A DNA stretch of 21,931 nucleotides from positions 1-21,931 of IMG/VR virus record IMGVR_UViG_3300032220_001237, one strand, 5' to 3'. Made by a program: the position numbers and the translations under genes. Under the pieces are notes generated by a model. It made no database searches. It was given only the letters and a program-made list of their open reading frames with translations, and was not told where the DNA came from. This document shows positions 1 to 18,067 of this stretch, one piece after another. Position 1 is the first letter of the stretch, and every line of letters begins with the position of its first letter. The DNA is from a virus.

Positions 1-919
1 GGGTTTTTCCTATACCTACGCTTAAATACCCCGTCTCCAAAAACTCTCCGTCCGGGCCACTTGACCAGTAATCCGGACCAACTACCCAGGACTGAGTCGA
101 GCCATTCCAGCAGATCGTAGCTTTTTCGTACAACCCCGCGCTAAGATCGACATCGCTGAGATCGTCGAGCCTGAACAGACCGGCCTCGTCGGTAACAAGT
201 AACGTACCGCTGCGGTCGGGAAGGCTGATCAGCCGATCCTCGCTCGGAGGTACGGCCTGAAGCGTAGTGGTGAATTCGGAGCCGGGCAGATTCAGCTCGC
301 CAAATACATCAAGGCCCGACCCGCTCACCGTGGCCTTCTTGACCCCACCGATCCCGACGGAGATGTTACTCGGCGCCGACCGGTACAGGCCGCTTCCAGG
401 CTCCGAGGTGAATGAGAGTGACGGGGCTGTAACCGTACCATCGGAGACTCTGGCCTGACCCTGCACGGTCAGTGACTGGGAGAGGGTGAGGTTGGCGAAC
501 TCGACGTTCGCGTTCGTTGCCACACCCTGGCCGATGGAGATTTGACCGTTTGAAAGTGTTACGCCCGTACCACCACTGAAATGTGCGCGGACCTCCGCCG
601 CGCTCGGGCCCGTGTACGTGAGAGCGCCGGTGACCGAGTTGTAAACCAACGACCCATCGCCACCGGCGTCGGTTACGCTCAGAACAGGTCCGCCACCCCC
701 TTCTCCCGTGGTCTTAAGGACCAGGTCGGTGTCCGCGATCCCCGTCTTCCACCAGTACTCAACGATCAGAGTCGTACCGATACCAACGGTCAGGCCGAGG
801 TGTCTGTTGACCTCGGCAACCGAATTCTTCGCCAGCTCCAGCGTGCTGTAGGGTCCGTATCTATTGTCTAGGGCCTTCGGCGCGTAGACCTGGACGTTAT
901 CGTTGAGTAGGATTGCCAT
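1..919 (-). CDS. Tail fibre protein, N-terminal part (runs off left edge)
   Basis: Open frame on the minus strand from an ATG at 919 to the window edge, about 306 codons, with no stop seen, so the C-terminus is missing. The first 70 residues begin MAILLNDNVQVYAPK and continue with YGPYSTLELAK and VEYWW. They match almost position for position the start of the gene at 2276-2974, which fixes this ATG and suggests a shared adapter that docks the fibre to the baseplate or to another fibre segment. After a Gly-rich linker near residue 75 comes a Ser/Thr/Gly/Val-rich beta region (VRAHFSGGTGVT, then an ATNANVEFANLTLS stretch) typical of trimeric phage fibres, including those of cyanophages. No strong Shine-Dalgarno is seen. 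It is the last visible gene of the leftward fibre cassette, 47 bases after the preceding stop. Fibre identity is well supported; the receptor is unknown. Confidence 0.85.
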   Translation of the reverse strand, partial: MAILLNDNVQVYAPKALDNRYGPYSTLELAKNSVAEVNRHLGLTVGIGTTLIVEYWWKTGIADTDLVLKTTGEGGGGPVLSVTDAGGDGSLVYNSVTGALTYTGPSAAEVRAHFSGGTGVTLSNGQISIGQGVATNANVEFANLTLSQSLTVQGQARVSDGTVTAPSLSFTSEPGSGLYRSAPSNISVGIGGVKKATVSGSGLDVFGELNLPGSEFTTTLQAVPPSEDRLISLPDRSGTLLVTDEAGLFRLDDLSDVDLSAGLYEKATICWNGSTQSWVVGPDYWSSGPDGEFLETGYLSVGIGKT

Positions 920-966
920 CGTTCTAGTTTTCTCTTAGCATTGGGGTTCGATACGTCGGAATTTTT

Positions 967-1311
967 TTAGCTATAACCTGCCGGCCAGATCTGACCGGTG
1001 TCGCGCAGAACCACGGTCAACTGGGAGACGATGACAGGGTCGAAACCCGCGGTTACGTACGTAATGGACGGTCTGAGTACGTCGGAATACACGGGGTTGA
1101 GTCCGCTTATCTGTCCACTGAAGCCAGGCGGAGAGTGCAGCCATGGAACCCCACCTGATTCTCTGAAATACTGGACCGGCCCGTCACTGAATGAGTAGTC
1201 CTGCCCACCACTTACGCTCTGAGCCGTGGTTATTGTGAAATGCTGGACCGGGCCGATAAGCCAGGAGTACGACTGGCCGCCACTTATACTCTGAGCCGTG
1301 GTTATTGTCAT
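967..1311 (-). CDS. Small virion-associated protein candidate with two tandem 24-residue repeats
   Basis: A 114-residue protein whose ATG overlaps the stop of the upstream gene as ATGA, so translation is probably coupled. Immediately after the initiator Met come two tandem 24-residue units (TITTAQS-x-SGGQ-x-YS-xxx-GPVQ-x-F). A Pro/Gly/Val-rich tail with the string GLNPVY follows. That string resembles GFNPVY near the end of the upstream 320-residue protein, and the residues after it are also loosely similar, so the two may share a small beta domain. No signal peptide or membrane segment is seen. I do not recognise the family. Its place between fibre genes suggests a fibre accessory or tip protein, which is inference. 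Confidence 0.7.
   Translation of the reverse strand: MTITTAQSISGGQSYSWLIGPVQHFTITTAQSVSGGQDYSFSDGPVQYFRESGGVPWLHSPPGFSGQISGLNPVYSDVLRPSITYVTAGFDPVIVSQLTVVLRDTGQIWPAGYS
1165..1308 (-). repeat. Two tandem 72-bp coding repeats
   Basis: Copies at 1237-1308 and 1165-1236 encode two adjacent 24-residue units in the 967-1311 gene. Fourteen of the first fifteen residues are near-identical (TITTAQS, SGGQ, YS) and both units end GPVQ-x-F. DNA identity is highest in the segment reading ctctgagccgtggttattg on the plus strand, pointing to a fairly recent duplication. Confidence 0.85.
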
Positions 1312-2273
1312 CAGATCGTACGAGCTAGGAACACAGGGTTAGATGTAACTCCCTGAGCCGCGTTTCCGTTAAGGAAGTGAAGGATCTCGTACTCCTCGAC
1401 CCCCGGTGTTACCGTAGCGTTATCTTGAATAGCAAGAAGATTGCTATTTTTGATCATAGTAACTCCGAAGTCGCCGGGAAGCGGCGTAGTGATAACCGAG
1501 TTGGGAACCATTCCGGTATACACAGGGTTGAAGCCAGATGGCGGGATAGAGGGGTTAGCAAACGTATTCCAGCTTGGCAAAATATAACCCGAATCTGGAG
1601 TAGTGTAGCCGCCATAGTCGGCGTAACTTGGGGCTAAAGCAAAAATGTTCATTGTTGCAGGACTGCCATAACCATTGGTGCCAGCATTTAGCTGACTCCC
1701 TAAAAACAGATCGCGCCTTGTTCGGTAAACTGACAAGAAATGTATGCTCTGAGAAGACGGGGCGACTCGCCAAATTCCGGAGTGGTAGCCGTAGTCCAGG
1801 TCGTAGAAAGATCTAAACGCTGTGTCCGAAGGATCGATCGTAAAGTTGTTGTGCGCAAATCCGCTCCGAAGGACGAAGAAGCTTCTGGTCCCCGAAGTGT
1901 ACCGGGTAAGTGAGCAACTGATAGAGTTGGAGATAGTCAGAAGTAGTGGGACATCGCTCATGTCCGTCATATTCTGAACTCTCCAGTCCACGTACTGAAC
2001 ACCGTCCGGGCGATGATTAAGCGCATCCCATACCGGCGCCGTTCTCATCCACACCCCGACTCCGTCGATCGTAAACCAGTAATAGGTCTTACCGTAATCC
2101 TTAGCAGCGTTATAGGTTACTTCGAGGATACGGTGCTCACGACCACCTCCGGTAAACGAGTCGTACCACGCGGTCATCAGACCGGCGTCTATGAACGCGG
2201 ACTCGAAAAAGTCGCAGACCGTAGTCACGGTCCAGGGTGCGACTGCTGCGTAAGCCTGCTTGTCAACTGCCAT
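1311..2273 (-). CDS. Hypothetical structural protein of the fibre cassette
   Basis: A 320-residue protein with a clear start: GGAGG lies 7 bases before the ATG at 2273, and this Shine-Dalgarno lies inside the last codons of the upstream fibre gene (stop at 2276). The sequence is rich in aromatic residues and Ser, with few charged clusters, and has no signal peptide or transmembrane segment. The N-terminal half carries VTTVCDFFESAFIDAGL, EHRILEVTYN and KTYYWFTIDGVGVW; the C-terminal third has PPSGFNPVY and a beta-rich stretch. This looks like a phage virion protein, perhaps a baseplate wedge or fibre-attachment component, but I cannot assign a family. Its close packing with fibre genes on both sides supports a structural role. 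Confidence 0.75.
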   Translation of the reverse strand: MAVDKQAYAAVAPWTVTTVCDFFESAFIDAGLMTAWYDSFTGGGREHRILEVTYNAAKDYGKTYYWFTIDGVGVWMRTAPVWDALNHRPDGVQYVDWRVQNMTDMSDVPLLLTISNSISCSLTRYTSGTRSFFVLRSGFAHNNFTIDPSDTAFRSFYDLDYGYHSGIWRVAPSSQSIHFLSVYRTRRDLFLGSQLNAGTNGYGSPATMNIFALAPSYADYGGYTTPDSGYILPSWNTFANPSIPPSGFNPVYTGMVPNSVITTPLPGDFGVTMIKNSNLLAIQDNATVTPGVEEYEILHFLNGNAAQGVTSNPVFLARTI

Positions 2274-2275
2274 GA

Positions 2276-2974
2276 TTATTCCTCCAGGGGTAGGGTGGTT
2301 AGGGTCAGAGTGATTTGAGTAGAACTGCCACTTCTGTTGATAATTCTACCGTAGACTAGGCCGGTATTATCTCCTCGCAGAGTGGGAATAGGGTTCTGGA
2401 CGATAATCTCCCCCGGAACAACCGTAACGTTCTCGGAGTAAGGTTTTGCGTCTCCGAGGTTAATCATCGACTGAAGCGGACCGCCCGGACCGCCTCGTGT
2501 GTCCGCTGAGCGCTGGGCGCTGGAGCGGTAGAATCTCAGCCAGGAAGGAACCGAGATCTCGACTGACAGGAGTTCGGAAACTTGACCGAGACCCGCGATA
2601 AAGTCCTCGGCTTCGAGGTTTGCCAGTACTGATGTTGTGTACGTAGTGGTGGCTGGGACGAGAACGTCTCCGCTCGAGGCCGCTACGATCCGCCCCTTCT
2701 GATCGACTGTGATATTCGCAAAAAGATATTCCCCCGGAGTCACCTCCGTATCCGGCAGCGGGGGGTTTTTAGGAACCAGGTCGTTATCCCCCACTCCGGC
2801 TTCCCACCAGTACTCCACGAGCGACGTGGTGCCCACGGCCACTGTCATTCCGACATGTCTTTCCACCCCGGGCACCGAACTTTTCGCCAGCTCCAGCGTG
2901 CTGTAGGGCCCGTACTTGTCGTCCATGATCTTAGGAGCATAGACATGAACGTTGTCGTTGAGTATAATTGCCAT
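2276..2974 (-). CDS. Short tail fibre with adapter domain and C-terminal beta tip
   Basis: The start is placed at the ATG at 2974 (MAIILNDNVHVYAPK) because it aligns with the paralogue starting at 919. A possible upstream start at 3004 would overlap the preceding gene by 26 bases and add residues the paralogue lacks. Residues 1-65 are the shared adapter (YGPYSTLELAK, VEYWW). A middle segment follows with an LFANITVDQKGRIVAASSG-like stretch, a pattern common in phage fibres. The last 100 residues form a tip domain (VPSWLRFYRSSAQRSADTRG, then GRIINRSG) that resembles the C-terminus of the coiled-coil fibre at 13200-14114. The protein is about 232 residues, short for a fibre, so it may be a tip or connector. 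It probably acts in host adsorption; the ligand is unknown. Confidence 0.85.
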   Translation of the reverse strand: MAIILNDNVHVYAPKIMDDKYGPYSTLELAKSSVPGVERHVGMTVAVGTTSLVEYWWEAGVGDNDLVPKNPPLPDTEVTPGEYLFANITVDQKGRIVAASSGDVLVPATTTYTTSVLANLEAEDFIAGLGQVSELLSVEISVPSWLRFYRSSAQRSADTRGGPGGPLQSMINLGDAKPYSENVTVVPGEIIVQNPIPTLRGDNTGLVYGRIINRSGSSTQITLTLTTLPLEE

Positions 2975-2978
2975 TGTG

Positions 2979-4484
2979 TTAGTTGTTCCGAAGTTCCATA
3001 ACACCGCCCGTAGTAGTGGCGTAGTTAGATACGTAGACCCTGTAACTCACCCCGGCCCAGTAGGACAACGAGCTATTAAACGCCTGAGTGGCCGATGCGC
3101 CGAATAGGTCGGTTGGAGAACCGATACTTCCGTTGTTTATCACCGTATTGTACCACTTTGTCTTGGTTGTCGACGAAGTTGGGTGGGCGAACCACAAGTA
3201 CTGAGCCGAAGCTCCGAAAGTAACGGAAAGAGTGTTGGCCGAAGACTCCACGACTTTGTTGGCCGCGGCGTTGCCACTACTCACCAGCACCGCAATCTGC
3301 GCTGCGGTCAGCGATGTGCTGGAGACTCCCCAGAAGTACGGGTATACGCCGGTCACGGTCGGCGAGCTGGTTGTGTCCGCCACACTTCCTGCGGCTCTGA
3401 GCGAATCGAGGTTAGTGGCTGGGACCAGGCCGGAGTCGTAGTAGACGCCCGTACCAACTCCGTGAAAAGCCGTCACCGCCCAGTTATTCGTCCCGCTCTG
3501 CACCGTATTGGTGACGGACAGCGTATTGCCGGGCTGATCGGTCTGGGAAATCCCGGTTCCCGTAAAGCTATACGAAGTGGCCGCACCGACCAGAACAGGG
3601 CCGGGGCTACCATCTCCGTTTACTATCTGACCCCGACCAAACGTCGCGGTCAGCACACGGGATATAGTACGTCCGATTTCCAGAGTTCCGGAGTCTCCGC
3701 TGACTGTCAGATTCACCGACTTACCCGACCCGACCGTGGCGGGTGAGACCGGGAAAAGTATGGCATCCAAGACCTCAACAATGTTCCGAGTTTTCCAAGT
3801 CGAGGCAAGGGTGGCCGGAGCTCCGCCAACCGGAACAGAGAGCCGGTTATCAGCGACAAGCGTATTGTACGCCGTACTTAACACATTACTGTTCAGTACA
3901 AGGCCGTGGTTTTGTAAAATGCTAATTGCCTGGCCATTCCCCTCCACATAAGACTGCAGGAATGAATACGGCACAGCGTCGGAATCATCGACCGGGTCGG
4001 CTACGCCGCTTATTCTTCTACTCTGCACGTCCAGAGCCACTGATCCGGCCAATGTAAGCTGCCCGATAGTGACTTTGTTCTCAAACGTAGCGTTTCCGCT
4101 GCTGCTTATGTATGCGACCGTGCTGCCCGAGCTATTTAACCACTCCGAGATTCGGAGGTTTGTAGCCGAACCTCTTATCGTAAGTGCGACGGTGTTGTTG
4201 TTACCCGGATTTATTATATTCGGCTGCAGAGTGGTTGGAACTTTGCGCAAATAGTTATTAAAATTCTGATTTATCGCACTAACTAACGAATTTACTTCGG
4301 ACTTCGTATATGTATTTGCCAGAGTCGCATACAGAGCGAACTGGTTGTCCAGATAAGTCCGGGTGTATACCTGGCTCAGGTTAGCTTTGGCATTTAAAAG
4401 CTGATTTATCTCAGCCTTGGTGTATAAATCGCTTATTCCGCCCAGGTTAGGGGTACAAGACTTGCTGAAATTTTTAGACGACAT
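2979..4484 (-). CDS. Large tail fibre protein
   Basis: A 501-residue protein starting at the ATG at 4484, which overlaps the upstream stop as TAATG. Residues about 20-80 contain repeated YTKAEINQLL / YTKSEVNSLV units, a common trimeric shaft motif of phage fibres. A central region has beta-repeat character (FPVSPATVGSG, LEIGRTISRVL, GTGISQTDQPGNTLSVTN). The last 130 residues (VTGVYPYFWGVSS through YLWFAHPTSS to a short RVYVSNY segment) look like a widespread fibre C-terminal domain. A GTTGAAAGC motif lies 26 bases before the start, inside the upstream coding sequence, so this gene may start a transcription unit that reads on into the genes to its left. Fibre identity is secure; the binding target is not. 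Confidence 0.88.
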   Translation of the reverse strand: MSSKNFSKSCTPNLGGISDLYTKAEINQLLNAKANLSQVYTRTYLDNQFALYATLANTYTKSEVNSLVSAINQNFNNYLRKVPTTLQPNIINPGNNNTVALTIRGSATNLRISEWLNSSGSTVAYISSSGNATFENKVTIGQLTLAGSVALDVQSRRISGVADPVDDSDAVPYSFLQSYVEGNGQAISILQNHGLVLNSNVLSTAYNTLVADNRLSVPVGGAPATLASTWKTRNIVEVLDAILFPVSPATVGSGKSVNLTVSGDSGTLEIGRTISRVLTATFGRGQIVNGDGSPGPVLVGAATSYSFTGTGISQTDQPGNTLSVTNTVQSGTNNWAVTAFHGVGTGVYYDSGLVPATNLDSLRAAGSVADTTSSPTVTGVYPYFWGVSSTSLTAAQIAVLVSSGNAAANKVVESSANTLSVTFGASAQYLWFAHPTSSTTKTKWYNTVINNGSIGSPTDLFGASATQAFNSSLSYWAGVSYRVYVSNYATTTGGVMELRNN

Positions 4485-5365
4485 TACGCGCTCGGCCCCG
4501 CTCCTAATCTGCTTTCAACTGGCGCGCAGATCAAATCATTGTTTCCCGAGCTAAGTGATACTTTGACCCGGCCCGGGCGATTACAGGGTGCGGATTCGGA
4601 CAAACACTTGTTGGGTTTGCCATTGACCACACAGTACAGCTTTTCCCAATACTGACGAGGGGGCGGACTATTGATCGACTGGGGCGGAACATCATCGGTC
4701 GCCACATAGACGCAGGTATAGTCTCCGCAGCCCGAGTCGTACAGTACGACCGAGCCGACTTCGTAGACATACGGCTTTTCGATCTTCGCATCCGACCACA
4801 TATCCGAGTCCGGGTCAGTCAGGTCGGACCCCCAAGCCGAATCAAACTCTTTCCAACGTGTCAGGAACGGGCGCGGTTCGTAATACCCGTAATCAGCCAG
4901 AACCTGGTCGATTGTTGGCAGACCGACCGGCTCGGTCGTACTGACCGAGCACACAACTTCCCACTGTGCGGGGTTAAATGCTCCGGCCGGCGGAGCTATG
5001 TTTACCAATGCGCGGTAGACCACGGTACGATAGCCGTCATTCTCCGATCTGACTATCTCGTCTCCGACTCTGTACGCGTACTGGTCGATATATTTTGCTA
5101 CACCCCACTTCTCATCGCTCAGCGAGTTTTCGTAACCCCAAGCAATATCGATATTGCCCCATTTCCTAAATATCCCGTTTGTCGGATCGTAAGACCGGTA
5201 GGTCTGAAACAACTCGTTAGCGTCTCGTTCGCACGTATTTAGGTACGCCGAAGTACACGAGGTGTCGACAATATCGGACACCTCAATACCCTTCGACGCC
5301 AAGGCCTGAAGCTGCGACGCAGTAAAGCAGCTAGGAGGCTGCCCTCCAAAAGCCTTGGCCGCCAC
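4484..5365 (-). CDS. Cys-rich virion protein candidate with duplicated carbohydrate-binding-like module
   Basis: A 293-residue protein with a GTG start at 5365 preceded by AGG about 9 bases upstream. It contains two copies of a module of about 75 residues, at roughly 67-139 and 170-245. Each begins with a W-x(n)-AWG segment, continues with Y-x-VG-(D/S)-x-V-x and a Y-rich strand, and ends Pro-rich then W-x-x-(V/L)-x-C. The last part (a GD or GS turn, Y-x-A, P, W) resembles CBM5/12-type chitin-binding or phage carbohydrate-binding folds. At least ten Cys residues are present, unusual for a cytoplasmic phage protein and possible disulphides in the virion. The final residues include VESR, encoded by the GTTGAAAGC motif that precedes the next gene. 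A baseplate or fibre-associated glycan-binding role is inference. Confidence 0.75.
   Translation of the reverse strand: MAAKAFGGQPPSCFTASQLQALASKGIEVSDIVDTSCTSAYLNTCERDANELFQTYRSYDPTNGIFRKWGNIDIAWGYENSLSDEKWGVAKYIDQYAYRVGDEIVRSENDGYRTVVYRALVNIAPPAGAFNPAQWEVVCSVSTTEPVGLPTIDQVLADYGYYEPRPFLTRWKEFDSAWGSDLTDPDSDMWSDAKIEKPYVYEVGSVVLYDSGCGDYTCVYVATDDVPPQSINSPPPRQYWEKLYCVVNGKPNKCLSESAPCNRPGRVKVSLSSGNNDLICAPVESRLGAGPSA
4503..4519 (-). promoter_or_regulatory. GTTGAAAGC motif upstream of the 501-residue fibre gene
   Basis: On the minus strand this reads GTTGAAAGCAGATTAGG, close to the best copies at 5844-5860 and 14765-14781. It ends about 18 bases before the fibre ATG at 4484 and lies inside the coding end of the upstream gene. 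Proposed late promoter or leader element; function is inference. Confidence 0.5.
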
Positions 5366-5375
5366 TTTTTAGACC

Positions 5376-5807
5376 TCAGGAGAACCGGAAGTTGTCGGAA
5401 ACCAGAGTTAATTCGAGCGTGCTCGGGTTACCACTGGTCCGGTCGACTTGACCGAAAGTGAGCGAAGAAAGCTGAGCGTCGAGCAGCAGAAGCTGACGGC
5501 TACCGAGACGCTGCGGGTTTTCACCACAGGTGACCGGAGTCACACTGACAGTGATGAAATCGCAATTTCCCGTAGTCCAGAAGTCGACGATTTCGTCGTG
5601 CTTTGTAGGATCGAAAGGAGTGGACAGAGTCATTTCCTTGATCACTTTGGGGCCGCGAAGATTGTAGATCCGCTGTCTAACACCATCAGCGTACTGAGTG
5701 GTGGTAGCGGTATCAGACAGCCCGGTAAACGAAGTGAAGTAAAGGGACATCCACGGAGAAGCCTGGACCAGATACTGTGACTGGGTAATCGGACGAATCT
5801 GTAGCAT
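5376..5807 (-). CDS. Probable tail tube protein
   Basis: A 143-residue protein of the usual tail-tube size. The N-terminus has a W-M-x-L-Y-F strand, followed by YADGVRQRIYNLRGPKVIKE and the string TPFDPTKHDEIVDFW at residues 63-77. Contractile-phage tube proteins of the T4 gp19-like fold often have this layout: a rotated beta sandwich with a helix after an FDP-type turn, then strands ending SS-x-LTFGQVD and LELTLVSDNF. The tube would form the inner channel of the tail inside the sheath encoded at the right end of the window. There is no clear Shine-Dalgarno next to the ATG; a GTTGAAAGCAGTTTAGG motif lies 36-52 bases upstream. The upstream gene is the portal, the downstream one the Cys-rich virion protein. 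A small baseplate or tail-completion protein is the main alternative. Confidence 0.65.
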   Translation of the reverse strand: MLQIRPITQSQYLVQASPWMSLYFTSFTGLSDTATTTQYADGVRQRIYNLRGPKVIKEMTLSTPFDPTKHDEIVDFWTTGNCDFITVSVTPVTCGENPQRLGSRQLLLLDAQLSSLTFGQVDRTSGNPSTLELTLVSDNFRFS

Positions 5808-5843
5808 TTTAATAACGAGGTTTTATGGAGTTGTGTATCTCCG

Positions 5844-5860
5844 CCTAAACTGCTTTCAAC
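5844..5860 (-). promoter_or_regulatory. GTTGAAAGC motif between portal and tail tube genes
   Basis: Minus strand GTTGAAAGCAGTTTAGG. The TGA inside GTTGAAAGC is the actual stop codon of the portal gene. The motif shares 16 consecutive bases (TGAAAGCAGTTTAGGC) with the copy before the 14473-14757 gene. It lies 36 bases before the tail tube start. Proposed late promoter or leader element. Confidence 0.55.
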
Positions 5861-7769
5861 TATAGTACGGAGCGAAATGTGACCAGTACCCTGTTGACTC
5901 GGGGTTCAGTACTACGCACTCATGATGTACGTGATGACGGTTGAGGCGGTAAGAGAGCAGGTAGATAGAAATGAGTCGGGACACCTGGTCAGGTGTAAAG
6001 TCCTCGCTACGAATAGCGATGTTCTCGAATTCCTGCAGGTCCCGACGAAGCTCGAAGTGCTCGGACGGAATTATACGATGAGACCCTCTGATCTCGTCGA
6101 GTAAACGCTTAGTAACAAAGACTATGTCGCCTGGCGAAGTATACTCGTCTATATCTATCCGTGAAGACTCGGCATTCGTACTACTTATACCCGTAGCAAT
6201 ACGGTCCCAGCCGACTTCATCAATACCGCCTTGCGAGAAACGCTCGGCGATGACCTTGGAAACTTTGTCCTTCGTAGTTTTGTCCTTGAGGTCACCGTTC
6301 TCATCGAATTCGGTAAAGTCGAGGTTCTCGGCCGAAACCGGGACCACACTGGACACCATTCGACCAATCGCGCTTTCTCCCAGAACCGGCCCGGTTTCCT
6401 TGCTCTCCGACATGCCCGGCATGCCCGCATCCATCGCGGGCATTTCCGATTTCTCAAGCGACGGGATCTCCAGCTTGTCTCTGACCCAGTCCAGGTCGGT
6501 GACCGTATAGCCGATAGCCTGAAGCTGAGTCAGCATCTGGACCACTTTGACCGGGTCTTCGCGCTGCTCAAGGTCTTCGAAGTTACGGCGAAGGCGGGGA
6601 ACCGAAGCGCCGGGGTAATTGAGCTCGACAATCCATCGTATCAGCGTGGCGTTAAGAGTTTCGTCGAGTTCTTCGCTAAAAGCCTTGGCCTTTCTCATCC
6701 TCACGCTGTCGGCCACGGAGTCACGCGCATACGACCCGGTCGAGCCGGTATCCTGGCCCACAGTCGACTCGCCGTTGACAAGAAAACTGATCTGCTGGTC
6801 GATGTAGGTTACCAGGCTTTGGTAGATTTCCGGCTTACCCGCACCGCCTTCCAGCCACTTCACATCCATTTCATCAGGCAAGACGATCGATGTCTCTTGC
6901 CCCAACCTCTGCAGCGCGGTCAAGAGCGAATTGATCTCTTCTTCCGGCGTACCCAGGCTAAACTTGCCCACCGCGGTCGGTGTGGTGTGTTTGTCGGCGT
7001 ACTGGAGCCAAAAACTCATCAGCGTACGGCGAAACTCTACGAGGCTGTAGAGTTGACGGCCCAGACCGGTGCCGTACGGGTCCATGTTGTTGCTGTAGGC
7101 CCAGTGCCGATGGATCACCATGCTCCGGAGCGGAACAGCCAGACCTTCTACGGCAGACTGAATCGTAATAACCCGCGGACTGATCGAACCGTCTTCGTTC
7201 AAAATGAACTGGATACGGCGAGGGTCTCGAATCTTGATTTCTGAAGGCACGATGTAGCTTCCCTGCCTCATCCAGCAGATCTCGCCAATACTGATTCCGA
7301 GGATCAGCGATTCGCACATTCCGCGTACAAAAGCATCGAAGCCGGAGTTCGAACTGACCAGCATGTCACGACCCCGGCTTTGCCTGGTGTTCGAACCCAT
7401 GTGATAGATGGCCTGACGAACAAACTCGGCCACTTCTTCGTCACGGTCGGTATCTGAAGCCGGAAATACTTCCCATTTACGCTGAATTATCTCGCCAACC
7501 AGCTTTTCCCAAGCCGCTATGACCGAACTGTCATTGAACAACCGAGTATAGTGCTCGATTGCACGCGGACCGCCGCCAGCCTCTTCGATGAGAATGTCAT
7601 CGCGCCGAGGCAGAATCGCTCCGGTCAGTACGGTCGGCAGTCCGCCCCAGGTGTACGGGTCGGATTTATAACCGGCCAGATTACCCTGACTTACCCCGAG
7701 CGAGTAAAGACGGTCGTTGTATCCAGTCTTTACGACACGTTTAGGGGTCTGATCTTCATCGGACGACAT
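5856..7769 (-). CDS. Portal protein, Mu gp29 / DUF935-like
   Basis: A 637-residue protein. Around residues 225-310 it has the hallmark portal segment: a HRHWAYSNNMDPYGTGLG string, then LYSLVEFRRTLMSFW, then a TPTAVGKF strand, then a predicted helix and SIVLPDEMDVKWLEGG. This order matches DUF935 portals, which form the dodecameric DNA entry channel at the capsid vertex. Upstream, a WEVFPASD strand and an EVAEFVRQAI helix fit the portal wing; downstream, GSYARDSVADSVRMRKAKAF fits the crown. The C-terminal 150 or so residues go beyond the typical core and contain a Met-rich linker (MPAMDAGMPGM) and a charged alpha-helical domain of unknown role. The start is ATG; a purine-rich GGAAGAG is about 16 bases upstream, far for a Shine-Dalgarno. 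A GTTGAAAGC motif lies 23 bases before the start. Confidence 0.85.
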   Translation of the reverse strand: MSSDEDQTPKRVVKTGYNDRLYSLGVSQGNLAGYKSDPYTWGGLPTVLTGAILPRRDDILIEEAGGGPRAIEHYTRLFNDSSVIAAWEKLVGEIIQRKWEVFPASDTDRDEEVAEFVRQAIYHMGSNTRQSRGRDMLVSSNSGFDAFVRGMCESLILGISIGEICWMRQGSYIVPSEIKIRDPRRIQFILNEDGSISPRVITIQSAVEGLAVPLRSMVIHRHWAYSNNMDPYGTGLGRQLYSLVEFRRTLMSFWLQYADKHTTPTAVGKFSLGTPEEEINSLLTALQRLGQETSIVLPDEMDVKWLEGGAGKPEIYQSLVTYIDQQISFLVNGESTVGQDTGSTGSYARDSVADSVRMRKAKAFSEELDETLNATLIRWIVELNYPGASVPRLRRNFEDLEQREDPVKVVQMLTQLQAIGYTVTDLDWVRDKLEIPSLEKSEMPAMDAGMPGMSESKETGPVLGESAIGRMVSSVVPVSAENLDFTEFDENGDLKDKTTKDKVSKVIAERFSQGGIDEVGWDRIATGISSTNAESSRIDIDEYTSPGDIVFVTKRLLDEIRGSHRIIPSEHFELRRDLQEFENIAIRSEDFTPDQVSRLISIYLLSYRLNRHHVHHECVVLNPESTGYWSHFAPYYS

Positions 7770-13199: not shown

Positions 13200-14114
13200 G
13201 TGGCCGACCTAAGAACCAGATTTATAGAGGACTATGCGGGCGGTCTGCTGAATATCGCGCGTCAAGAACTCTCGAGTACGGGTGAAGTCTTGGCCCAGGA
13301 CGGGTTTGTAGACAACACCGCGTTGTTTGTTGAAGATGGTCGGGGCGTAAAAAGCGGACTGAGACTGGGTAGTTCGTTGGCCGAATGTATCGACCCGACT
13401 ACGGAGACCGGACTGCTGAATGTCCGGACTGCTGACCGAACCTATGCGAAGATCAAGGATCTTAAGATCTTCGCTACCGCGGTCGCATCGGCTCAGAGTG
13501 CGCTGACCGATTCGGTATCCGAGTCGGTTAGTAATTTTGAAGGTGCGTTTGAGTCGTTAGAGGTTGATTTTCAGTCGTTCCGGTCAGAAATCAATCTGTC
13601 AATTGAACAGATAAACAAGTCGTTAGAAGACCAGAGCTCGCTGATAAGCAAAATCAACACTGAAACGGTTCTGCGTATTGATTCGGACGCCGCATCGTTG
13701 TCGAACAGGGTCGATATTCTCGAAGAAACCGTAAAAGGCGTACAGATCGTGGCCTCTGAACTTAAATCGTCCGGTTCGACCTTTAAGCTCGAAGATGACG
13801 AACTACAGCGGTTCGATATTGAATCAAAATCAAAGTACTACGCGATAACAGAGATTTCAACCAACGTGCCAGCCTGGGTCACGCTGTATACCGATGCGGG
13901 GTCGCAAGGTAATGACATCAGAGCACAAGGCGACCCGGCCGCTGTTAACAGCGGAATTATAGTCGATGTGATCACAACGACAGATAACTACGTTCGTAAG
14001 TTCATGCCGCTGCTGATTGCGGGATCGGATGAACCGAAATTCTATATCCGCGCAGTTAACCGGTCCAACGTTACGGTTCAGGTCGCCGTAGTTATCAAAT
14101 ATATCCCGCTCTAA
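13200..14114 (+). CDS. Coiled-coil fibre or whisker protein with C-terminal beta tip
   Basis: A 304-residue protein with a GTG start at 13200, five bases after the LRR gene stop. Residues 1-90 form an N-terminal attachment region. Residues about 92-188 are a long heptad-type helix without Pro (FESLEVDFQSFRSEINLSI, IEQINKSLEDQSSLISKI, LSNRVDILEETVKGV), expected to form a trimeric coiled coil like fibritin or short fibres. The last 110 residues are a beta domain (EISTNVPAWVTLYTDAGSQG, FYIRAVNRSNVTVQVAVVI) resembling the C-terminus of the fibre at 2276-2974. A receptor-contacting or fibre-folding role is likely. Its stop overlaps the stop of the convergent gene by 3 bases, leaving no room for an intergenic terminator. 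Confidence 0.8.
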   Translation: MADLRTRFIEDYAGGLLNIARQELSSTGEVLAQDGFVDNTALFVEDGRGVKSGLRLGSSLAECIDPTTETGLLNVRTADRTYAKIKDLKIFATAVASAQSALTDSVSESVSNFEGAFESLEVDFQSFRSEINLSIEQINKSLEDQSSLISKINTETVLRIDSDAASLSNRVDILEETVKGVQIVASELKSSGSTFKLEDDELQRFDIESKSKYYAITEISTNVPAWVTLYTDAGSQGNDIRAQGDPAAVNSGIIVDVITTTDNYVRKFMPLLIAGSDEPKFYIRAVNRSNVTVQVAVVIKYIPL

Positions 14115-14825: not shown

Positions 14826-15929
14826 TCAGTAGTCAGTCTCTAAGTAGCAGCTCATCAGCGCGATGCCGATGACGCTGCTGGTGCCGCCAACGCTCATCCA
14901 GCCACGCGGAGCCAGGAGCGTGGTGTTGGTTGGCATGTTGGTGTTGATCGTGCCAGAAGCTGTGGCTCCGGTGCCGAGATCGGTCACGGTGTAGCTCACC
15001 GACTGCGTGCTGCCGGGGGGTGAGAACATCACCAGCTCATAGACCTTGGTGCGGTCTGTTGTTGGCACAGGGAAGCTGGCGCCGAGGTTGACCTTGGTGA
15101 TTGCACCAGTGCCGCGGTGCATGATCTGGATGTTGGCGTCTGCTGCGTCCCAGCCCATGCCGACGATGTTGGTGATCGTGCTCGGCTCAACGTCGGTCGG
15201 CGCAGCAGTGGTGTTGGCCATGCCGACAAAGGCGCGGTTCGTGGTTGTTGCGACGCCGGTGGCTGGCCCCCAGCGGCAGACATAAAAGAAGCCGCCTTCA
15301 TCCGCAGCAGCGCCGCCGACCGTCCAGCCCAGGTTGGGGTAGCGCCAGCCTGCAACCGCTGTAGTGGCTGCGGCGGTGACGAGATACTCAAGGCGCTGCG
15401 TTCGCGTCTGCCTGTTGGTGGTGGCGATGTTGGCGGATGTTGCGGTGCCTGTTGCGGTCAGCGTGGCAGTGCCGACGACGACAGGGGCGTTCGATCCACA
15501 GGCGCCCTGCCAGATGCTCACGCGGTTCTGCGCAAATGTCGGCTGCAGTGCAGCAGCGGCCGATGTGGAGCTGTTCTTGAAGCACGGCATGGAGCGGCCG
15601 CCGATTGACAGCGCCGCGAGCTTGCTGCCTGCTCCCGGTGCGGTAGCTGCAGTGTTGTTCGCAAGAACCAGATCGCCCTCGTGGATAGTGACATCACTCG
15701 CACCACCAAACGCACCGGCATTGTTAAATTGGATCTGACCGCTACTGCCCCCAGGACTGCCACCAACACCCGCTCCGACCTCAACAATGCTCTCCACTCC
15801 CGAAACGTCTTTCTTCAGAAAGAGTTTTCCATCGTTCGTGTTAATGGCCAGCTCGCCCAGAGCGAGCTGCGTGGTTGTCGGAACTGCCGACGCAACCGAA
15901 CTGCGCCGTATTCGTATCGTATTTGCCAT
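14826..15929 (-). CDS. Tail fibre protein with imported-looking C-terminal domain
   Basis: A 367-residue protein; ATG at 15929 with GGGGAG 5 bases upstream. Residues 1-50 (MANTIRIRRSSVASAVPTTT, then LALGELAINTNDGKLFLKK) are a widespread phage fibre N-terminal domain, shared with the next fibre gene to the right. A Gly-rich linker near 55-65 leads to IQFNNAGAFGGASD, then a region from about 100 to the end with GWTVGGAAADEGGFFYVCRW, FVGMANT and the terminal LETDY. That domain recurs in phages of many hosts and looks like a lectin-like beta sandwich. The C-terminal part is strongly GC-rich: single 60-base lines counted by eye give 44/60 at 15301 and 39/60 at 14881, against 24/60 at 10681. Probable receptor-binding protein. 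Confidence 0.88.
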   Translation of the reverse strand: MANTIRIRRSSVASAVPTTTQLALGELAINTNDGKLFLKKDVSGVESIVEVGAGVGGSPGGSSGQIQFNNAGAFGGASDVTIHEGDLVLANNTAATAPGAGSKLAALSIGGRSMPCFKNSSTSAAAALQPTFAQNRVSIWQGACGSNAPVVVGTATLTATGTATSANIATTNRQTRTQRLEYLVTAAATTAVAGWRYPNLGWTVGGAAADEGGFFYVCRWGPATGVATTTNRAFVGMANTTAAPTDVEPSTITNIVGMGWDAADANIQIMHRGTGAITKVNLGASFPVPTTDRTKVYELVMFSPPGSTQSVSYTVTDLGTGATASGTINTNMPTNTTLLAPRGWMSVGGTSSVIGIALMSCYLETDY

Positions 15930-15991: not shown

Positions 15992-18067
15992 TTAGAAAGT
16001 TCCGCCGTCCAGATCGAAGCCGGAAGCCGTGCCGTCTTCGAGGAAGGTGACGAGGTCGCTGAGGGCGACCTGGACCATCGTCCCCGCGTCGTTGATAACC
16101 ATGCGGTCGGCCAGGACCAGGGTCGTCGCAGTCGCGGTGGTCGAGCCGTCGATTACCGCGGCCTCAGTCGAGGTCAGAGCGGCGAGCGAAGTGGCCGTGC
16201 CACTGGCCATACCGGCCAGAGTGGCCAGTTCGGCGTCGTAGGCCTGCACGTTCGTCCCGATCACCAGACCGAGGTTTGTACGAGCACCCGCCGCGTCAGC
16301 CGCACCCGTGCCGCCATTAGTCAGGGCGAGCGTGCCGGCCAGAGTGACCGCACCGGTCGTAGCGGTGCTGGGGGTCAGGCCGGTTGTTCCGGCGGAGAAC
16401 GAACTAACCCCGGTCCCGGAGACGGACGAGTTGAACGAGCTGTACCATTGCGTTGTCGACGCCGCATTGAACTCCATCACGCCGTTGACGGCGAGCTGGA
16501 TGCTGGCGTTGGCGCTTAGCGCGTCGATGATTGCGCCGGATGCCGGAAATATATTGACCGGGTTGGCGCCTTTGTTAACGACGACCACGCGCCGGCCGGT
16601 CGTAGCGGTGGGCAGAGTCACGCCGCTCGGGTTCGCCGCCGCTGTGGTAATAACGCTAAGGTCGCTGGTCAGAGCGCCCTGGCCTTGCGCGTTGGTCCCC
16701 GCCGTTACGTTGGCCGTTGTGCTGAAGGTCTCCGCGCTCAGTGACGGTGTGGTCAGAGACGGCGACGTACCGAACACCAGAGCGCCAGTTCCCGTCTCGT
16801 CGCTGATCGCCGCGGCCAAGTTAGCCGATGTGTCGGAAATACCGTAGCCCGAGAAAGTTGTCGGAGCGGTGCCTGCGGTAACCCGGCCGTAAGTGTCAAC
16901 AGTAACGGAGCGGTATGTGCCCGCCGTTGCGATACCCGATGTCAGGTTGATCGAATCGACCCCGATTGTCAGCGAACCGCCGCCCGTCGAGGCCACATCG
17001 AGTGTATTACCGGTCTTGGTCAGACCGGCCCCTGCCGTGATCTGGCCAGCCCCGGAGAACTGGGCGAATGTCAGCGCCGTAGTACCGAGAACAATGGTGT
17101 CGTTGGTCGTCAGTACCCAGCCGCTGTCAGCGTTAACCGTACCTTCTGTCACAAAAGTGAACATACCGCCGGTCACTTCGGAGCCCGGCGTGTTGTCCGC
17201 GTCGAGTGCGCGGGTCCAGGCCCCAGCGGCAACGACGTAGATGCCATTGCCAGACGCGGTGGTCTGATCCTTCACCAACACGCGGTCATTGGCCACCAGG
17301 ACCACGCCGTCGACAGTCTGAGTGCCGCTCAGCGTGATGTTAGCGGTCGTCGCAGCTCTTACGCTGTCCTTGACATCCAGACCGGTCTTAAGCGCATCGA
17401 CATACGCCTTCGTCGCTGCGTCCTGGGCCCCCGACGGATCGGCCAGGCCGGTAATCCGCTGGTTGTTCAAAGCCACCGACGCCGTAGGCGCCGTCATCTG
17501 ATCGAGGCGGTTAGTCCGTACTTGCGTATCGAAGTCGCTAATCTTCGCGGCGGTCAGTGTAGGAATATCAGCGGCAACGAGGGAGCGGAAAGTCGGGGCT
17601 CCGGCCGAACCGTCAGGCGCGATGAATACTGTATTTGCTGTCTGGCTGGCCAGAGTACCCGTAAGCGTACCCGTCGTGGTGACCGGCGAACCGCTGACCG
17701 TGATAAAGCTTGGCAGTGACAGCGCAACGCTGGTCACCGCGTTCGCGCTTGTCAAATACCCCTGCCCTTTGACAAAAGCCGTGCTCGCCGCTTTCGTGCT
17801 GTTGTCGGACAGAGTTTGTGTGGTGACGATTACGTCGCCGGTGAACGTCTTGTTGCCCGAAACGGTCTGCGTGCCGCTAAGGCTGAGAAACGCGCCGGTA
17901 CCGCCAATCGCCGGAATCGTAGTGGCCGTGCCGCCCGCACCGCCCGTACCCTTACCGTAGTAAAGAATATCATCTACTTCGTTAAAAGCCAACTCCGCGT
18001 TGGCTAAGCTGGCCGGTGCGCCAGCATTACCACTGGCTCGGCGTTTGATGCGCAGAACGTTAGCCAT
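15992..18067 (-). CDS. Long tail fibre protein
   Basis: A 691-residue protein starting at the ATG at 18067, with GGGGG about 12 bases upstream. The N-terminus [20 protein letters not shown] and [20 protein letters not shown] is the same domain type as in the neighbouring fibre. The rest is a classic modular fibre: repeated [99 protein letters not shown] and [19 protein letters not shown] units. It ends FDLDGGTF, a common cyanophage fibre ending. Nearly no Cys or Trp, with high Thr/Ala/Gly content, fits a trimeric beta shaft. It is probably the main distal or side fibre. Its stop is followed by a hairpin at 15965-15982; its start lies 2 bases from the stop of the preceding small gene. Confidence 0.92.

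Follow-up and report, generated by a model that had tools for sequence, protein, structure and literature searches.

A 21,931-nucleotide stretch of viral DNA (IMG/VR virus record IMGVR_UViG_3300032220_001237; this whole stretch is called the window below) encodes two fibre-like proteins, P0001 and P0002, that begin with the same N-terminal module, which we call M. The gene directly upstream of P0002 encodes a third fibre-like protein, which ends in an immunoglobulin (Ig)-like domain of about 285 residues, here named T1. We propose that T1 is a socket and M a plug, and that together they connect one fibre segment to the next through a non-covalent joint, a reading to which we assign a probability of about 0.62. 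It builds on the following observations: M is shared by different proteins and lies at their N-termini, T1 lies at the C-terminus of its protein, T1 is followed by M in gene order, the members of each pair co-diverge, and in a relative without both halves the flanking parts are fused.

The shared module M

P0001 (1..919, minus strand; cut by the window end) opens MAILLNDNVQVYAPK, and P0002 (2276..2974, minus strand; complete, 232 amino acids (aa)) opens MAIILNDNVHVYAPK. Residues 1-69 of the two proteins (713..919 and 2768..2974, respectively, both on the minus strand) align by BLASTP without gaps and with 47/69 positions identical (E 9e-33 for the single pair), and their local alignment score is 266, compared with a maximum of 52 across 2000 shuffles. 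The similarity ends at residue 69, a lysine, beyond which the tails of P0001 (237 aa) and P0002 (163 aa; 2279..2767, minus strand) have no BLASTP match to each other at E 1e-3. An initial annotation of the window had described an N-terminal segment of about 65 residues common to the genes starting at 919 and 2974, with complete divergence downstream. Both points hold, except that the segment is slightly longer than described; properly aligned, it runs ungapped for 69 residues rather than stopping within a few. In P0001, M is followed by an EGGGG linker (residues 73-77; 689..703, minus strand), and the incomplete tail (1..688, minus strand) contains a widespread phage fibre motif and then a fibre-like region. 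The full-length P0001 relative in L003, a close relative of the window, has 505 aa.

At the DNA level the two window copies of M are 73% identical, with a synonymous divergence (dS) of ~1.15 and a non-synonymous divergence (dN) of 0.19. L003 carries both of the same copies, and the orthologous modules of the window and L003 differ by 2 non-synonymous changes in P0001 and 0 in P0002. Because dS is so high relative to dN, we read the window's two modules as old copies, each kept by purifying selection. A recent duplication was rejected, since dS between copies is ~1.15-1.34 and both copies are also in L003. Across the record, which is an IMG/VR fragment, there is no M copy beyond these two; the further copies that the initial annotation had suggested looking for outside the window are found in numerous open reading frames (ORFs) of other viral contigs. 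One of these contigs, L004 (52,564 bases), shares 98.7% identity with the window across 10,149 bases and stops inside module M, so assemblies may break at such repeats.

A protein scan of viral contigs found 40 loci with M, and from a scan with an M profile the best 80 of 295 relatives were taken. Counted apart from L001 and L002 (the window copies) and L043 (a crassvirus), M hits occur in 157 ORFs of 95 loci, and all 157 start within the first 10 residues. Thirty-two selected records, some of them 200-340 kilobases (kb) long, hold 1-4 copies each. A tblastn search of 50,697 phage records returned only four weak matches, corresponding to two crassvirus genomes, each listed twice; bacterial and archaeal genomes, scanned by the single peptide MAIILNDN, yielded 8 pattern matches and 0 M relatives. 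In the crassvirus cr107_1 (L043, 11926-15387), a gene annotated 'phosphatase' opens with an M-like sequence and adjoins an 'internalin-like' receptor-binding gene.

The tails behind M mostly differ within loci. Among 62 M copies from 27 multi-copy loci (counted without the window rows and L041), only 4 have their nearest relative in the same locus, and homogenisation of M copies within genomes was rejected on this count. Conversely, the fibre motif of the P0001 tail was found in 85 ORFs of 80 loci (the best 80 of 562), of which only 1, on the L003 contig, bears M; therefore, tails seem to join and leave M freely. In a close relative, the P0001 tail itself sits on another N-terminus. At least four glycines lie within 12 residues after M in 23/97 ORFs, compared with 5% of other 12-residue windows. 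A glycine linker is thus enriched at this position, and was rejected as the general junction after M. Long Ser/Gly/Thr repeats (GSSGTSGSS...) follow M in L015, L016 and L017 (from 10001), up to the contig end. An apparent tail swap behind an identical module in L015 and L016 was dropped because both tails consist of such repeats.

AlphaFold2 predicts the M of P0002 (28 rows) with a mean predicted local distance difference test score (pLDDT) of 77. Residues 1-19 have no secondary structure in the model (pLDDT 63-64), and the core comprises a strand (20-24), a helix (27-33) and two further strands (44-47 and 53-56). Foldseek found nothing at E 0.001 or better for this model among viral models, its first rows being uncultured phage, crass-like and tail fibre proteins. 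In the PDB, the two highest-scoring matches (Z 3.7 and 3.4) cover the N-terminal regions of a Geobacillus phage protein and a Klebsiella capsule lyase; SH2 domains score little lower, and these matches were judged too weak to name the fold. Nor could M be assigned to a family already described: searches of Pfam, PHROGs, NCBIfam and PDB sequences returned no usable match, and 28 M members have no Pfam or PHROG match. The T7 tail fibre N-terminal domain (PF03906) does not match M; it has a sub-threshold match in the T1 gene, over 32 residues (147-178; 17.4 bits, compared with a cut-off of 25.2). The N-terminal domain of the tail spike TSP1/Gp66 resembles the M model weakly (Foldseek rank 17, E 0.34) and has no Pfam sequence match to M.

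Gene order of T1 and M

The gene upstream of P0002 (2979..4484, minus strand) encodes a protein of 501 aa with 'YTK.E...L' repeats across its N-terminal half and T1 as its C-terminal 285 aa (2982..3836, minus strand). T1 is predicted to be beta-rich with one Ig-like half, a fold taken from a relative in L087. In an AlphaFold model of the read-through T1-linker-M chain of L087 (mean pLDDT 83.8, predicted template modelling score 0.65), T1 is well folded (74 to 97 in ten-residue blocks), the linker and the start of M are disordered (pLDDT 34-47) and the M core is near 80. T1 residues 34-162 in this model resemble Ig-like domains (Z up to 9.5 over 87 residues, 2.8 Å), a common fold. At the sequence level, 33 T1 members have no Pfam or PHROG match, the window's T1 has no match in phage records, and Pfam and PDB-sequence searches gave no gp10 match for T1. 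T1 ends at most 10 residues from the C-terminus or ORF end in 87/99 cases.

We examined gene order in 61 loci, deduplicated by grouping at 90% DNA identity over 30% of the shorter locus; the window and L003 are counted separately although they are close relatives. The first M gene of the locus is directly preceded by T1 in 60 of the 61. Across 97 M genes, the preceding gene carries T1 only in 81 cases and both M and T1 in 9; three are preceded by another M gene (the second copies in L005, L006 and L008), three by an unrelated gene (the cases of P0001, its L003 counterpart and L041), and in one the preceding gene is too far away. The gap from a T1-only gene to M is 4-91 nucleotides (nt). The total of 91 T1-to-M adjacencies compares with 14.6 (standard deviation 3.4, maximum 26) in 1000 gene-order shuffles. 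Starting from T1 instead, 81/86 T1-only genes are followed by M. Of the 13 proteins that begin with M and end in T1, 9 are followed by an M gene, 2 lie at contig ends, one precedes a T1 gene with another N-terminus, and for one the next gene is too far away. T1 and M genes are equal in number in 47/61 loci, and two M accompany one T1 in each of the window, L003, L005, L006 and L008.

Because these loci had been fetched by M, a scan seeded on T1 alone was run. The next gene bears M in 45/45 loci. Most of these contigs overlap the M-fetched set; the new ones (L206, L215, L219, L223, L225 and L226-L231) all have T1 and then M. A scan with the window's own T1 returned only near relatives, one more distant locus and one fragment. 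In bacterial genomes, a T1 scan found one relative, in Fulvivirgaceae bacterium JP3-4 (L244), where the T1 gene (3527-4741) is followed after 2 nt by an M gene (4744-6963) whose product matches a tail fibre family at its C-terminus; the region just upstream of the pair matches a baseplate hub (E 3e-32) and, more weakly, a baseplate wedge (E 0.001). At the level of folds and profiles, the same order is seen in two cultured phages. In Tenacibaculum phage PTm1, ORF-030 (T1, hhalign E 2e-7) is followed by ORF-031 (M, E 6e-10), and in Tenacibaculum phage pT24, BPT24_124 (T1, E 2e-12) is followed by BPT24_123 (M, E 3e-4, probability 39%). We found no description of the T1-M pairing in a search of open-licence papers.

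A different N-terminal type (MSR..GTF...PLDAR.LV) follows the T1 genes of L063 (11846), L068 (13283) and L081 (12065). It was not counted as M (hhalign probability 8%, E 0.0043), and is possibly a second kind of plug. The gene upstream of the M-like gene in cr107_1 was rejected as T1 (E 0.48).

Co-divergence, a natural fusion and rival readings

Distances among T1 domains correlate with distances among the M modules adjacent to them. Over 87 adjacent pairs from 59 loci, a set that leaves aside the window and pairs with a short T1 or M, r is 0.57 by tree and 0.60 by identity. When M was reassigned to T1 within each locus, the means were 0.31 and 0.36, respectively, and the observed r was reached in 0/1000 reshuffles. 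Therefore, shared genome history is not the whole cause of the correlation.

A natural fusion also bears on the proposed joint. The contig G033 (42,829 bases; read as L180) is 98.0% identical to L003 over L003 1-5093, and beyond that resumes at a match to L003 base 8333, where it is 80% identical. It thereby skips T1, the P0002 counterpart, two spacer genes and the P0001 module. The result is one 626-aa ORF that joins the first 205 residues of the L003 upstream fibre to the tail of P0001, with the junction in an EGGGG linker that is present at that place in both parents. G033 contains 0 M and 0 T1 (both at E <= 1); L003 served as the positive control for these searches. Because its tail differs by 20% in DNA from that of L003, it is not simply a misassembly of the L003 phage. 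An upstream part and a tail that form one chain where T1 and M are both absent is the pattern expected if the two domains make a joint. In a third relative, L185 (118,537-base contig, 4001-6500), the upstream fibre gene carries a frameshift; a T1 fragment and, behind it, distant genes come directly next, and from this arrangement the fibre array of L185 seems collapsed.

How might such a joint work? The C-terminal T1 of one gene's product would hold the N-terminal M of the next gene's product, such that successive genes would build successive links and the fibre would be a chain. Proteins that begin with M and end in T1 would serve as middle links. Either side could be exchanged freely, with any proximal part before T1 and any tail after M. 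In the window, the single T1 protein (4484-2979) would carry both P0002 and P0001, which would therefore share, or alternate on, one socket. The physical binding of T1 to M, the oligomeric state, the order of assembly and the identity of the structure as a tail (baseplate) fibre are all parts of this scheme that we infer. More tentatively, and with somewhat less than even confidence, we suggest that T1-M is a general portable joint cassette that lies across a gene boundary and splits fibres into separately made, exchangeable links. Its variants would include repeated units (T, M-T, M-T, M in L055), a doubled plug (the window) and absence, giving a one-piece fibre (G033).

The initial annotation had taken the shared segment for a docking domain reused for different shafts or tips, and had concluded that the two fibres compete for or occupy equivalent sites. 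The reuse stands, as M is always N-terminal, its tails mostly differ within loci and the P0001 tail occurs on another N-terminus; the docking site, however, is probably the C-terminal T1 of the preceding gene's product rather than a shared site on the phage tail. Equivalent sites do not hold as a general rule, given how seldom nearest relatives share a locus and how often T1 and M are equal in number, and may hold in the window and in the four other loci with two M and one T1.

Several points weigh against the proposed joint. Neighbouring genes also co-diverge by linkage, which is possibly the cause of the T1-M correlation. The fusion is known from a single metagenomic contig. L041 has M without T1, T1-bearing ORFs in L063, L068, L081 and L082 precede genes that the M profile does not match, and crassvirus cr107_1 has an M-like sequence with no recognisable T1 upstream. 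Docking was looked for by AlphaFold in the fused L087 chain, and none between T1 and M is visible in this monomer; the test is weak because fibres are expected to be trimers, which one chain alone cannot build. Finally, PTm1 has been reported to carry head-fibre-like appendages, so the fibre may instead sit on the head.

Three other explanations were weighed. M could instead be a classical virion adapter, by which both fibres dock on one tail or baseplate component, T1 being merely an operon neighbour. It is common for different receptor-binding proteins to be docked through an N-terminal anchor, according to PMC6872550 and PMC11414711, and the top PDB matches of the M model, at their low Z-scores, are N-terminal parts of phage proteins. 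We nonetheless consider an adapter unlikely: gene order alone fails to explain why M follows T1 in every T1-seeded locus, and the recurrence of T-M units and M-T middle links in a single locus, the pair-specific co-divergence and the joint absence of both halves in G033 are all left unexplained.

Alternatively, T1 could serve its own fibre, either as the receptor-binding tip or as a C-terminal folding domain, and the T1-M boundary could be mainly a conserved recombination cassette that moves as a single block of DNA between variable flanks. The Ig-like fold of T1 is common among surface-binding phage proteins, linkage could yield the co-divergence, and a short EGGGG-coding stretch is in common at the G033 junction. 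Yet such a cassette would lead one to expect neither middle links that begin with M and end in T1 nor a proximal part fused to a tail where the block is missing. Moreover, most T1 and M rows share 20-55% identity with the window's, a divergence too great for family-wide recombination to be driven by DNA homology, and we regard this explanation as quite improbable. A third possibility is that programmed stop-codon read-through or frameshifting yields T1 and M in a single protein, as might be suggested by L005, L007, L070, L088 and L095, where one stop and one codon separate the two frames. This is highly improbable and was rejected, since adjacent pairs are in frame in 27/91 cases, about the one third that chance would give, the gap length ranges between 4 and 91 nt and the window's frames differ.

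Neighbouring genes and known systems

Two genes lie between the two M genes of the window, and both are kept in L003. One (1311..2273, minus strand) encodes 320 aa and has a second relative in L003 (13614-14717) with the same opening, MAV.KQ.Y...A.WT...SAFIDAGLMT.WYDSF; by sequence comparison, this opening is a third reused N-terminal segment. The other (967..1311, minus strand) encodes 114 aa with two internal repeats (FTITTAQS.SGGQ.YS). The uncharacterised PHROGs 9627 and 15343 match both the C-terminal part of P0002 (2276-2600, minus strand) and a gene at 13200-14114 (plus strand; match at 13700-14114), and therefore the tail domain is shared as well. Farther along, the fibre-like genes 14826-15929 and 15992-18067 (minus strand) share another N-terminal type (MANTIRIRRS-like) and differ downstream; they have PHROG matches to tail and head-decoration. 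The window also encodes tail tube and portal genes, which together with the baseplate matches in L244 favour the tail as the site of the fibre on the virion. The uncultured phages that carry T1-M probably infect Bacteroidota, and they include many with 200-340 kb genomes.

Large uncultured phages assemble several different fibres, and their fibre genes are usually annotated 'hypothetical'. Since T1 and M are unmatched in searches of Pfam, PHROGs and NCBIfam, annotation pipelines probably miss both. If T1-M is a general portable cassette, it would be a main organising rule of fibres in a large set of uncultured phages. A grammar of T1 ends and M starts would make the order of a fibre readable from sequence, with link boundaries marked, and it predicts a specific protein-protein contact between two small domains. 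One socket for two plugs would also recast the initial question of competition between the two fibres as an experimental one.

Known fibres offer partial parallels. In crAss001, the trimeric tail fibre gp22 docks in hubs by residues 1-26, as described in part of PMC10172136. There, too, a fibre is attached by a short N-terminal stretch, and crassvirus cr107_1 encodes an M-like N-terminus. The crAss001 hubs, however, are separate proteins (gp38/gp39), and cr107_1 has no recognisable T1 upstream.

Another parallel is found in G7C, K1-5, Klebsiella and Ackermannviridae phages, where a short conserved N-terminus docks different receptor-binding proteins on a partner fibre protein (PMC6872550 and PMC11414711). 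As with M, a conserved N-terminal segment is carried by different fibre proteins of one phage, and the tails behind M would likewise bind receptors. The partner in these branched systems has T4gp10-like domains, whereas here it would be the Ig-like C-terminal domain of a protein encoded just upstream.

In T4, according to PMC3004832, a trimer of gp36 holds gp37 by its N-terminal region, gp34 contacts the distal half-fibre with its C-terminal end, and the genes for the fibre are clustered. The gp36-gp37 contact is a joint of one fibre protein with the N-terminus of the next gene product; the T1-M gene order fits this arrangement, and T1-M binding would be its equivalent. No sequence relation was detected by Pfam or PHROG between T1 or M and the T4 fibre families. 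The two systems also differ in use: in T4 each joint occurs a single time, whereas T1-M units recur and are combined with many different proximal parts and tails.

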